64,000 nt of DNA, taken from Pseudooceanicola onchidii. Its GTDB lineage: Bacteria; Pseudomonadota; Alphaproteobacteria; Rhodobacterales; Rhodobacteraceae. Both the position numbers and the translations under genes were made by a program. The stretch covers positions 620,001 through 684,000 of the forward strand of contig NZ_SPUW01000002.1 of the NCBI RefSeq assembly GCF_004959925.1, read 5' to 3'. Shown here piece by piece: positions 52,339 through 60,353 of this stretch (the stretch's first letter is position 1; each line of letters begins with the position of its first letter). The notes under the pieces are model-generated. The model was not told the origin of the DNA, did not search any database, and worked only from the letters and a program-made list of their open reading frames with translations.

Positions 52339-52821
52339 ATGACCCCCGAAGAGATCGCCCAACTGCCCTATCGCCCCTGCGTCGGCGTCATGCTGGCCAA
52401 TCGCGATGGCCATGTCTTCGTCGGTCAGCGCATCGACAACCCCGGGCCCGCCTGGCAGATGCCGCAGGGCGGTGTCGACAAGGGCGAGGATCCGCGCGAT
52501 GCGGCCCTGCGCGAGCTGTGGGAAGAAACCGGCGTGACGGCCGACAAGGTCGAGGTCATCGCCGAGACCTCGGGTTGGGTACCCTATGACCTGCCGCATG
52601 ACCTGGTGCCGAAACTGTGGAAGGGGCGGTTTCGCGGGCAGGAACAGAAGTGGTTCCTGATGCGTTTCCTCGGGGACGACGCGGATGTGAACATCGACAC
52701 CGATCACCCCGAGTTTTCCCGCTGGCGCTGGCTGCCGACCGGGGATCTGGTCGACAACATCGTCCCGTTCAAGCGCGCCGTCTACGAGGCCGTTTTGGAT
52801 GAACTGAAGGACAAGATATGA
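52339..52821 (+). CDS. rppH: RNA pyrophosphohydrolase RppH
   Basis: 160 residues from the ATG at 52339, behind [31 protein letters not shown] at the start (in part) and the Nudix box [23 protein letters not shown] (catalytic Glu residues inside) are the RppH/NudH pattern, as is [17 protein letters not shown]. It removes pyrophosphate from mRNA 5' ends to start RNase E decay. Overlaps the next gene by 4 bases. Confidence 0.95.
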
Positions 52822-56290: not shown

Positions 56291-56482
56291 TCATGCCATT
56301 CCGGTACGGCTGCGCGGCCCGGCAACCAGCCAGATGATGAAGCCGAGAACCGGAAGGATCAGGACCAGCAGCGTCCAGAGAACTTTCTTCCCCGTCGATG
56401 CGCCGGATCCGATGATCGACACGATGGCCCATATGTCGAGGGCGAGGATGATGAGGCCGCCAATTCCAGATACTTCCAACAT
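56291..56482 (-). CDS. PLDc_N-type small membrane protein
   Basis: 63 residues: two hydrophobic helices (about 7-24 and 33-53), a GKKVLWTLLVLILPVLGFIIWL core typical of the phospholipase D N-terminal (PLDc_N) domain found alone in many bacteria, and a short basic tail. No enzyme domain is attached. An EcfG-type promoter on the same strand, 141-165 bases upstream, suggests general stress control. Confidence 0.8.
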   Translation of the reverse strand: MLEVSGIGGLIILALDIWAIVSIIGSGASTGKKVLWTLLVLILPVLGFIIWLVAGPRSRTGMA

Positions 56483-56622: not shown

Positions 56623-56647
56623 AACGCGCGCGGAACGCCCGGGTTCC
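56623..56647 (-). promoter_or_regulatory. Candidate EcfG promoter toward the PLDc_N-type gene
   Basis: On the minus strand GGAAC (56647-56643), 16-base spacer, CGTT (56626-56623). This matches the alphaproteobacterial EcfG consensus GGAAC-N16/17-CGTT. Confidence 0.6.
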
Positions 56648-56693: not shown

Positions 56694-56719
56694 GGAACCG
56701 GCGGGGCTGATCTGGCGTT
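56694..56719 (+). promoter_or_regulatory. Candidate EcfG promoter of the DUF1328 gene
   Basis: GGAAC (56694-56698), 17-base spacer, CGTT (56716-56719), with transcription expected near 56726 and a leader of about 47 bases. Exact match to the EcfG consensus. Confidence 0.75.
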
Positions 56720-56772: not shown

Positions 56773-56943
56773 ATGCTTTCCTGGGCACTTACCTTCCTTG
56801 TCATCGCCCTTATCGCGGCTGTTTTCGGCTTTGGCGGCATCGCCAGCGCATCGGCCGGTATCGCACAGATCCTGTTCGTGATCTTCCTGGTCCTGTTTGT
56901 CGTCGCCATGGTGGCACGGGCCGTTCGCGGCCAGACGCCGTAA
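56773..56943 (+). CDS. DUF1328 (YtjA-like) small membrane protein
   Basis: 56 residues behind GAAAGGAAAATACC. Two hydrophobic helices: [20 protein letters not shown] then the Gly/Ala-rich [12 protein letters not shown] turn and the second helix ending MVARAVRG. This is the DUF1328 family, found widely and often stress-induced; function unknown. It has its own EcfG-type promoter and terminator, and lies next to phyR. Confidence 0.9.
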
Positions 56944-57009: not shown

Positions 57010-57822
57010 TCAGTGCCGAAGCGTTTCGGTCGAGGAGAAGAACATCGCCTGGCTCGCGGCCAGCCGCACCTGTTCCTCGGAATATGGCTTGGTGATCAGG
57101 AAGGCCGGTTCGGCCTTTTCGCCGGTCAGCAGGCGTTCTGGGTAGGCGGTGATGAAGATCACCGGAACATCGCCGAGGATTTCCAGAAGATCGTTCACGG
57201 CGTCGATACCAGACGAATTGTCCGCCAGCTGGATGTCCGCGAAGATAAGGTCGGGACGCTCGGCCTTGCCAAGGGCGACCGCTTCGTCGCGGGTCCGCGC
57301 AACACCGGTGACGGCATGGCCCATTTCGCTCACGATGCTTTGCAGGTCCATGGCGATGATCGCCTCGTCCTCGATGATCATGACGCGGCCGGTGACGCTT
57401 TCGGCCAGTTCGCGCTGCGCGATCCGGACGAATTCTTCGGCTTCGGCTGTGCCGATCTTCATGATTTCGCCGATCTGCTCGAACGAGAATTCCTCGATCG
57501 TGGACAGAAGAAGCGCCTCGCGGGTGTTCGGGGTCAGGCGGCTAAGGTGTGCCTGCGCCCTTGCTTCGATCCCGGCCTCTTCGGCAGCGACCGGCGCGCC
57601 CGAGCTGTTCCAGATGGCGTGGAAGACGCCGAACAGGGTGACGCGGGTGGATTTGCCGGACTTGGCCAGCATCGGATCTTCGAGGATCGCTTCAAGCGTC
57701 GCCACGGCGTAATTGTCGCCGGAGGTCTGGCTGCCCGTAAGGGCGCGCGCGTATCGACGGAGGTATGGCAGCTCTGTCGCGACGTTCATGGCAAAATCTT
57801 CGGACCCCACCGTCTGGTTCAT
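57010..57822 (-). CDS. phyR: General stress response anti-anti-sigma regulator PhyR
   Basis: 270 residues from the ATG at 57822; the frame is open to 57906, but that longer start lies upstream of the predicted promoter start point. Residues 1-135 are a sigma-factor-like (EcfG-mimic) domain; 145-262 a receiver with E151/D152, phosphoacceptor D196, T225 (FITAYPE) and K245. When phosphorylated, PhyR binds NepR and frees EcfG. Transcribed away from nepR-ecfG from a shared symmetric promoter region. Confidence 0.96.
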   Translation of the reverse strand: MNQTVGSEDFAMNVATELPYLRRYARALTGSQTSGDNYAVATLEAILEDPMLAKSGKSTRVTLFGVFHAIWNSSGAPVAAEEAGIEARAQAHLSRLTPNTREALLLSTIEEFSFEQIGEIMKIGTAEAEEFVRIAQRELAESVTGRVMIIEDEAIIAMDLQSIVSEMGHAVTGVARTRDEAVALGKAERPDLIFADIQLADNSSGIDAVNDLLEILGDVPVIFITAYPERLLTGEKAEPAFLITKPYSEEQVRLAASQAMFFSSTETLRH

Positions 57823-57851
57823 TTTTTTCGTACCTTTTTTTTCGGTTTTCG

Positions 57852-57884
57852 GGAACCCAACGCGGGTAAACTGCGTTAGGTTCC
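57852..57884. promoter_or_regulatory. Symmetric bidirectional EcfG promoter (phyR / nepR-ecfG)
   Basis: Plus strand: GGAAC 57852-57856, N17, CGTT 57874-57877. Minus strand: GGAAC 57884-57880, N17, CGTT 57862-57859. The two promoters interlock so that each -10 lies within the other's spacer. Predicted starts leave leaders of about 30 bases for phyR and 35-40 for nepR. Confidence 0.85.
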
Positions 57885-57920
57885 GAGAAAAGTAGGAATG
57901 ACCCAAGAAAAAGTAGGGCT

Positions 57921-58076
57921 ATGGCGCACGACAACGAAAATCAACACGTGCTGAGACAGATCGACGAAAACTTGAAACGGGTTTACCAGGAAAAGCTCGA
58001 AGAGGATCTTCCGGACCGCTTCAAGTCGCTCCTCGATCAGTTGAAGAAGACGCAGGGTGAAGGGGACAACGTCTAA
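57921..58076 (+). CDS. nepR: Anti-sigma factor NepR
   Basis: 51 residues. Starts MAHDNENQHVLRQIDENLKR; the core VYQEKLEEDLPDRFKSLLDQL is the two-helix NepR motif that wraps EcfG sigma domains 2 and 4 or the PhyR mimic domain. It overlaps ecfG by one base (TAATG), so the anti-sigma and sigma are coupled. Ribosome site AGTAGGG is 4-10 bases upstream. Small even for this family. Confidence 0.93.
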   Translation: MAHDNENQHVLRQIDENLKRVYQEKLEEDLPDRFKSLLDQLKKTQGEGDNV

Positions 58077-58630
58077 TGTCGTCCGATCCTCGCGAAGAGC
58101 TCGTCGAGCATCTTCCCTCCCTGCGCGCATTCGCCATGAGCCTTTGCCGCAATTCCGCCCAGGCCGACGACCTTGTTCAGGACACCATCGTCAAGGCGTG
58201 GACCAACATCGAAAAATTCAAGGTCGGGACGAACCTGCGGGCGTGGCTTTTCACCATCCTGCGCAACACCTTCTACTCCGCCCGCCGCAAGTCCGGCCGT
58301 GAAGTTGCCGATGTGGATGGCGTGTTCTCGGCCAACCTCGCCACCAAGCCCGATCACGACGGCCGCCTGGCCATGAAGGATTTCGAAAAGGCCTTTGCGC
58401 AGCTGCCCGACGAACAGCGCGAAGCCCTGATCCTTGTCGGCGCCTCGGGGTTTTCCTACGAAGAAGCGGCAGACATGTGCGACTGCGCCGTCGGCACGAT
58501 CAAAAGTCGCGCGAACCGCGGCCGGGCCAAGCTTGCCGAGCTTATGAATCTGGACGATGATGAGTCGATGGAGCTAACAGATCAGTCGACCATGGCCGTG
58601 ATGTCGGCTGCCAAGATGAAATCCATGTAA
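58076..58630 (+). CDS. ecfG: ECF sigma factor EcfG (general stress response)
   Basis: 184 residues. Sigma region 2 (about 10-75) has FAMSLCRNSAQADDLVQDTIVKAW and LRAWLFTILRN; region 4 (about 105-160) has LPDEQREALILVGASGFSYEE and the helix GTIKSRANRGRAKL. An acidic, Met-rich tail of about 20 residues follows. It directs RNA polymerase to GGAAC-N16/17-CGTT promoters, several of which lie in this region, including its own. Confidence 0.95.
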   Translation: MSSDPREELVEHLPSLRAFAMSLCRNSAQADDLVQDTIVKAWTNIEKFKVGTNLRAWLFTILRNTFYSARRKSGREVADVDGVFSANLATKPDHDGRLAMKDFEKAFAQLPDEQREALILVGASGFSYEEAADMCDCAVGTIKSRANRGRAKLAELMNLDDDESMELTDQSTMAVMSAAKMKSM

Positions 58631-58640
58631 AGGGTACCCG

Positions 58641-60353
58641 GTGGGTCTTCGTTTCACTGACCGGCTTGGGGTGCGGGTTGTCGCGCTCCTGTCGATTGCG
58701 CTTCTGCCGATCGGGCTGATCTCTCTCTACCAGACCAGTTCCGTGGTCGAGAAGGCGGACGCTCTTACGCGGGCCGCCTATCTTGGTCAGACGGTCGCCG
58801 CCACCGAACGGCAAAGCGACCTGATCCACGAAGGCTTCGCCTCGGCTCGGGTTCTGGGTGGCGCGCTGATGGAAATGCGTGACGATCCTGCGGCCTGCAC
58901 GTCCCTCATGGAGGGGTTCATCCGGTCCCATCCGGCCTTCATCCTCGCGCTTTTCGTCGAACCCAGTGGCGTGACCCGCTGCAATTCGCGCGGTGCGCCT
59001 GCGGATGTGCGGTCGACCTCGACATTCCAGTCCATGCTGGCCGATCCACGGCCGCTGATGAAGGCGACCGACAGCGGCAAGATCACCAAGCAAGAGGTCA
59101 TGGTCATTGCGCAGCCGGTCTTCGAAGAAGGCCGGTTCATGGGGTTCGTGTCCCTGTCGCTGCCGCGCGCCAACGCCCGTTTCCAGCCTGATTTCGTTGG
59201 CCCGGCCGAACCGGACGACCTGATCACCATCAATGTCGATGGCGATGTGCTGCTGTCCATGGGTGACATCAATACCGCCGCCAACCGCCTGCCGGCCTTC
59301 CGCGACCTGAATTCGCAACTCTACCGCCATCTCAACCCGTTCCGCGCGCAGGACCAGGATGGCGTGATGCGGGTCTATTCCATCGCGCCGATCGTGCCCG
59401 GCATCGTCGTGGCCATATCGGTCTGGCCGGCCGAGGCCGCGCGCAACGAGGTCGGGCTGATCAGCCGGTCCGCCGTGGCCTTCCCGATCCTCATGTGGAT
59501 CGTGTCGCTTGTCGTGGCCTATTTCGCCGTGCACCGGCTGGTGATCCGCCACATCCGCAGCCTGCGGGTCAAGATGCGGCGTTTCGGTGCGACCTACAGC
59601 TACCAGGAACCCGGCATCCTGATCGCAAGCCGCGCCCCGACCGAGCTGATCCAGATCGAGGAAACCTTCGACAACATGGTCGAACGGATCACCCGCGACA
59701 CGGCCGAGTTGGAAAACAACCTGCATGAAAAGAACGTCCTGCTGAAAGAGGTGCACCACCGGGTGAAGAACAACCTCCAGCTGATCGCGTCGATCATCAA
59801 CATGGAGGTCCGCAAGGCCGGCAACACCGAAACCAAGTCGACCCTGCGCCGTATCCAGGACCGGGTGCTTGGCCTCGCGACCGTGCATTCGAACCTGTAT
59901 CACACCGCCCGCCTGGCGAATTTGCGGGCGGACGGGCTGCTTGAGGATATCCTCGACCAGGTGGTGAAAAGTGCCCTGCCGCAGGATGGCGAGGCCGATG
60001 TCCTGATCGAGGTCGAAGAGGTCATCCTGTCGCCTGACCGCGCGGTGCCCTTGTCGCTGCTGGCGACAGAGACCGTGACCAATGCGATCAAGTACTTCGG
60101 CCGACCGGCGGATGGCAGCAAGCCCTGGATCAAGATCTCGCTGATCAAGACCGGCGACGACGGCTGCCGGTTCAGCGTGGCGAACTCGAAGGGGGCGCAA
60201 CGCGACGATGTCGAAGACGGCGGATCAAGCAGCGGCCTGGGCAAGCAGCTGATCACCGCCTTCGCGGCGCAGCTGGGATCGCGGGCCGAGGTCGAGGAAA
60301 CCGCCGACAGCTACACACTCAACGTCGACATCGATCTGAGCAAACCGGGCTGA
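58641..60353 (+). CDS. Membrane sensor histidine kinase, HisKA_2/HWE-type (PhyK-like)
   Basis: 570 residues from a GTG start, 10 bases after ecfG. TM1 (about 11-30), a periplasmic sensor region (31-276), TM2 (277-299), a HAMP-like linker and coiled coil, then HisKA_2 with phosphoacceptor H373 in EVHHRVKNNLQ. ATP-binding residues: N481 in TETVTNAIKYFG and the G-box SGLGKQL (531-537). Position and type make it the likely PhyR kinase; the signal is unknown. Confidence 0.92.
   Translation: MGLRFTDRLGVRVVALLSIALLPIGLISLYQTSSVVEKADALTRAAYLGQTVAATERQSDLIHEGFASARVLGGALMEMRDDPAACTSLMEGFIRSHPAFILALFVEPSGVTRCNSRGAPADVRSTSTFQSMLADPRPLMKATDSGKITKQEVMVIAQPVFEEGRFMGFVSLSLPRANARFQPDFVGPAEPDDLITINVDGDVLLSMGDINTAANRLPAFRDLNSQLYRHLNPFRAQDQDGVMRVYSIAPIVPGIVVAISVWPAEAARNEVGLISRSAVAFPILMWIVSLVVAYFAVHRLVIRHIRSLRVKMRRFGATYSYQEPGILIASRAPTELIQIEETFDNMVERITRDTAELENNLHEKNVLLKEVHHRVKNNLQLIASIINMEVRKAGNTETKSTLRRIQDRVLGLATVHSNLYHTARLANLRADGLLEDILDQVVKSALPQDGEADVLIEVEEVILSPDRAVPLSLLATETVTNAIKYFGRPADGSKPWIKISLIKTGDDGCRFSVANSKGAQRDDVEDGGSSSGLGKQLITAFAAQLGSRAEVEETADSYTLNVDIDLSKPG

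Follow-up and report, generated by a model that had tools for sequence, protein, structure and literature searches.

Can a near-palindrome of 33 base pairs serve as the promoter of two divergent transcription units at once, and would the sharing itself have consequences for the circuit that these units encode? The question arises in the gap between phyR, on the left, and nepR-ecfG, on the right, in the 64-kb stretch of DNA that was analysed here as a whole, hereafter the window. The gene identities proposed in an earlier note on this DNA were confirmed by matches to Pfam domains (Table 1), and the locus has the organization of an alphaproteobacterial general stress response locus: phyR is divergent from nepR-ecfG, and an HWE-type kinase gene is found nearby. 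The stop codon of nepR overlaps the start codon of ecfG (TAATG), and the kinase gene, which begins 10 bp past ecfG, is probably in one operon with it.

Table 1. Features of the locus and of its surroundings, in coordinates of the window
Feature	Position	Strand	Remarks
PLDc_N small membrane protein gene	56291-56482	-	flanks the second EcfG-type pair
DUF1328 gene	56773-56943	+	flanks the second EcfG-type pair
phyR (anti-anti-sigma response regulator)	57010-57822	-	ATG at 57822; Pfam PhyR_sigma2 (6.9e-25), Response_reg, PhyR_sigma-like
Interlocked, very probably bidirectional EcfG promoter (near-palindrome)	57852-57884	.	33 bp; sequence, and conservation in 80/81 and 30/30 loci
EcfG-type promoter, predicted, towards nepR-ecfG	57852-57877	+	-35 GGAAC 57852-57856, N17, -10 CGTT 57874-57877
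EcfG-type promoter, predicted, towards phyR	57859-57884	-	-35 GGAAC 57884-57880, N17, -10 CGTT 57862-57859
nepR (anti-sigma factor, 51 aa)	57921-58076	+	Pfam NepR (4.1e-15)
ecfG (ECF15-type sigma factor)	58076-58630	+	Pfam Sigma70_r2, Sigma70_r4_2, PhyR_sigma2
HWE/HisKA_2 histidine kinase gene	58641-60353	+	GTG start; Pfam HisKA_2 (1.3e-19), HWE_HK

Excerpts of two papers give the EcfG consensus as GGAAC-N16,17-C/GGTT (PMC4814048, PMC12148442). The element, GGAACCCAACGCGGGTAAACTGCGTTAGGTTCC, matches it exactly in both directions: each strand carries GGAAC, a spacer of exactly 17 and CGTT, and the -10 box of each promoter lies inside the spacer of the opposite promoter, just as the earlier note had described. 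The same note counted 33 bp as shared, a figure that holds for the union of the two 26-bp promoters; their overlap is 19 bp (57859-57877), and the two -10 boxes are distinct. The genome encodes an EcfG sigma factor together with its PhyR and NepR partners. The nepR-ecfG transcript is predicted to start at about 57883-57885 and the phyR transcript at about 57853-57851, that is, about 31-33 bp apart, with predicted leaders of about 30 and 37 nt, which are ordinary. A hidden sigma70 promoter in the gap was also considered, and a simple scan of positions 57500-58700 gave no sigma70-like promoter.

The same gap was then aligned in other Rhodobacterales, a check suggested by the earlier note, and the outcome is strongly positive. 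One genome scan with the EcfG protein yielded 80 named loci, or 81 when the window is included, mainly from Pseudooceanicola, Sulfitobacter, Roseobacter, Jannaschia, Roseicyclus, Limimaricola, Loktanella and others; phyR and nepR are present in all 80. Among these loci, which share descent, and with the inverted -35 boxes alone as anchor, an inverted GGAAC/GTTCC pair is found in the phyR/nepR gap of 80 out of 81. The length of the pair is 31 bp in one locus, 32/33 bp in 73 and 27/28 bp in six, with none at 29, 30 or 34-44. A second draw, of 30 loci retrieved through the NepR family, contains the pair in every case (32 bp in 17 loci, 33 bp in the other 13). When the best forward and the best reverse sites are chosen independently, the reverse -10 lies exactly 7 bases past the start of the forward -35 in 69 of the 81 loci. 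The invariance of the -35 boxes follows from the choice of the anchor, of which the GTT of the -10 is not part: this GTT is kept in 71-72 of 73 loci in the phyR direction, and in 61-67 of 73 in the nepR direction. The first base of the -10 is freer, positions 13-15 carry almost no information, and the core is unconserved. In about half of the relatives, one -10 departs from the consensus at its first base, so that one direction may be weak in some of them.

The lengths of the pair obey a joint constraint. On a tree of PhyR and EcfG, built by a quick method, the length switched between 32 and 33 bp at least 12 times, and never outside the range of 16/17 spacers. Spacers of 16 and 17 give precisely these two lengths, so that a single indel in the shared core changes the spacing of both promoters jointly. 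The 27/28 form arose once on the same tree, in the clade formed by L038, L044, L049, L051, L060 and L068. In this clade, the separate CGTT boxes are lost, and a GGTT or AGTT inside the opposite -35 serves as -10, with the spacer kept at 16/17; GGTT is within the EcfG consensus as excerpted from PMC4814048.

Such an arrangement is not due to chance. The motif GGAAC-N17-CGTT occurs 4 times in the window, for 0.57 expected, and no shuffle got to 4; the comparative evidence, with 80 of 81 and 30 of 30 loci, is stronger than these window statistics. The pattern GGAACNNAACN-N10..13-GTTNNGTTCC matched in 83 of the 246 genomes of the order, representing 43 of 101 genera, and its reverse, used as a control, had no match in the 246 genomes; a companion search gave NepR matches in 167 of them. 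The pattern is stricter than the motif, missing for example the own locus of genome G255, in which one -10 is CATT, and 83 is thus an undercount. Among the matches listed, 69 of 75 interlocked sites are within 350 bp of a nepR match. The remaining listed sites include one in a paralogous GSR locus, those of G214 and G225, whose nepR neighbour is probably outside the matches listed, and three elsewhere (G255 C7, G298 C4 and G326 C14). We rejected the possibility that interlocked sites are a general feature of EcfG promoters, because nearly all of them are at phyR|nepR. Class-wide, the identical geometry was found in only 3 of 192 genomes, two of which belong to the window's own family.

Several other sites were encountered along the way. 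Genome G326 has two paralogous phyR/nepR/ecfG/kinase loci (L142 and L143), each with its own interlocked palindrome, and the two lengths differ. Outside any GSR locus, an interlocked EcfG-like pair lies between a glyceraldehyde-3-phosphate dehydrogenase gene and a DUF808 gene (L141:2034-2066). In a distant family, a single receiver-domain response regulator gene has an exact interlocked pair at its start (L119:3087-3118), and the opposite direction of the pair heads into a coding gene. The window itself contains a second divergent exact EcfG-type pair, back to back and non-overlapping, at 56623-56647 (-) and 56694-56719 (+); the PLDc_N and DUF1328 genes around it are probably further stress-response genes beside the control locus. 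Another EcfG-type site, at 52641-52666, is inside a coding frame and was discarded as probably due to chance. Outside the gap, loci L009-L088 contain 98 exact EcfG sites in 517 kb, where uniform chance would give about 8; these extra sites are mostly downstream of phyR, 1-2.8 kb beyond it.

Most other alphaproteobacterial families with paired sites solve the same problem differently. We compared loci of other families in which phyR and nepR are divergent and both sites are present: whereas the window's promoters are interlocked, those of most other families are back to back. The -35 boxes are separated by 8 bp in four families and by 6 bp in another, and one family has a gap of 40 bp. The order of G034 is interlocked, with an offset of 6, in 4 of 4 genomes. 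The 8-bp back-to-back pattern matched at phyR|nepR in five genomes, and at another place in one. Loci L089, L095, L096, L099, L105, L127 and L128 show the back-to-back form with a distance of exactly 8 bp from one -35 box to the other, and A/T runs are often adjacent. Consequently, at least two promoter layouts evolved for the phyR/nepR-ecfG circuit, and interlocking is not required.

Is the palindrome a pair of promoters at all? It might be the operator of a dimeric transcription factor, or a cruciform or hairpin, its likeness to promoters being secondary: the dyad symmetry is strong, a single strand folds at -14.2 kcal/mol (z -4.28), and symmetry at position 7 of the half is commoner than shuffles would give (p 0.001, not corrected for kinship). 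However, the half-site distance has switched freely from 32 to 33 and back, and in a single event to 27/28, with the promoter spacer at 16/17 throughout; a dimer operator would not behave in this way. The arms show no symmetry at positions 13-16 and, beyond the promoter letters, none except at position 7. Where the arms are symmetric, their letters belong to the EcfG boxes; as for the additional C that follows GGAAC and G that precedes CGTT, neighbouring single EcfG-like sites most often have these letters too. Given the predicted starts, neither mRNA would include both arms. Because the arm spacing obeys the promoter spacer rule and the symmetry ends at the promoter letters, we rejected operator and hairpin or cruciform as the main explanation, and consider them very improbable. 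It is also quite improbable that one direction alone is a working promoter, the opposite match being a by-product or a relic. The -10 on the nepR side is indeed less conserved, and one -10 is AGTT, TGTT or GGTT in many relatives, but both sites are exact in the window, both GTT cores are kept in most loci, and in other alphaproteobacterial families the gap retains two separate EcfG promoters; in other orders, both genes are EcfG-controlled according to excerpts of three papers (PMC4814048, PMC8103513, PMC3616915).

A third alternative accepts both promoters, and holds that the interlock is the compact end point of a short gap, without regulatory effect through exclusion. It is compatible with a bidirectional promoter, since it concerns the consequence of the overlap and not the promoters, and we find it as easy to believe as to doubt. 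The sigma70 bidirectional promoters of E. coli are too weakly active at the basal level to compete, and competition occurs only on strong activation (PMC12825309), so that exclusion may have no regulatory effect. A simple occupancy model agrees: the ratios of exclusive and of independent promoters are nearly equal at low occupancy and differ only at high occupancy. Back-to-back forms do occur elsewhere. Against this, the interlock survives in gaps of about 91 to 165 bp and through repeated indels, which suggests selection for the overlap itself, although separation is also mutationally hard when boxes are shared.

We thus retain, as very probable, that the 33-bp element is a bidirectional EcfG promoter to which one polymerase binds at a time. 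The EcfG holoenzyme would bind it in either of two orientations; in each, the GGAAC of one strand would serve as -35, and the CGTT that adjoins the GGAAC of the opposite strand as -10. One orientation would yield the nepR-ecfG(-kinase) mRNA, and the other the phyR mRNA. Under stress, phosphorylated PhyR would remove NepR, and the freed EcfG would amplify, from a single site, both the sigma/anti-sigma pair and the anti-anti-sigma factor. Both bound states would need the same base pairs, leaving room for a single polymerase on the site; from this geometry, it can safely be inferred that two holoenzymes would be mutually exclusive at the overlapping boxes.

Part of this is already textbook. In PMC4814048 and PMC8103513, it is a stated rule that EcfG controls phyR as well as nepR-ecfG, and an excerpt of PMC3616915 reports mapped starts and rpoE2-dependence of both units for the S. 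meliloti orthologues rsiA1 and rsiB1. As excerpted, these systems resemble the window in genes, divergent layout, sigma factor, consensus and positive feedback on both units, but their promoters are given as two, and the excerpts make no mention of overlap, shared boxes or a conserved interlock (PMC4814048, PMC8103513, PMC3616915). What is added here is both promoters as one conserved interlocked element; in the open-licence papers searched, we found neither an overlap nor a palindrome described at phyR/nepR, although an earlier description may exist. Judged by its sequence, the element would work like the bidirectional promoters of E. coli and other prokaryotes (PMC12825309), with a different layout. 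Both have pseudo-symmetric DNA with overlapping elements on opposite strands (19 bp shared in the window), and the window is predicted to share with them the binding of one polymerase at a time and the divergent mRNAs of linked genes. In contrast, the promoters of that study use sigma70, their -10 elements are shared or overlap, and their starts are at distances of 10, 18 or 23 bp, whereas in the window each -10 adjoins the opposite -35, the distance predicted between the starts is about 31-33 bp, the sigma factor is of the ECF type, and one product is the very sigma factor used.

The earlier note went further, and proposed that exclusion sets the PhyR:NepR:EcfG ratio, a claim that is unproven. 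In the occupancy model, the ratio of exclusive promoters stays constant whatever the sigma level, and independent ones converge near saturation. One may speculate that, owing to exclusion, the phyR:nepR initiation ratio does not vary with the EcfG level, which would be relevant only near saturation; high occupancy may hold during stress, since both boxes are consensus. Going from there to a family-wide lock on one shared exclusive ECF promoter, with selection for exclusion fixing the ratio of anti-anti-sigma to sigma/anti-sigma initiation whatever the free EcfG, is a step that we regard as rather unlikely to be right. If it were, these bacteria would have a built-in ratio control, absent from families with back-to-back promoters, and partner-switch circuits depend on the ratio of their parts. 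The element offers in any case a clean ECF-sigma case of a bidirectional promoter, in a layout conserved over dozens of genera. It also completes a natural comparison of one circuit in three layouts: interlocked in the window's family and one other order, a 27/28-bp palindrome in one clade, and back to back in other families. With these, the effect of promoter overlap on the ratio and noise of a stress switch becomes testable.
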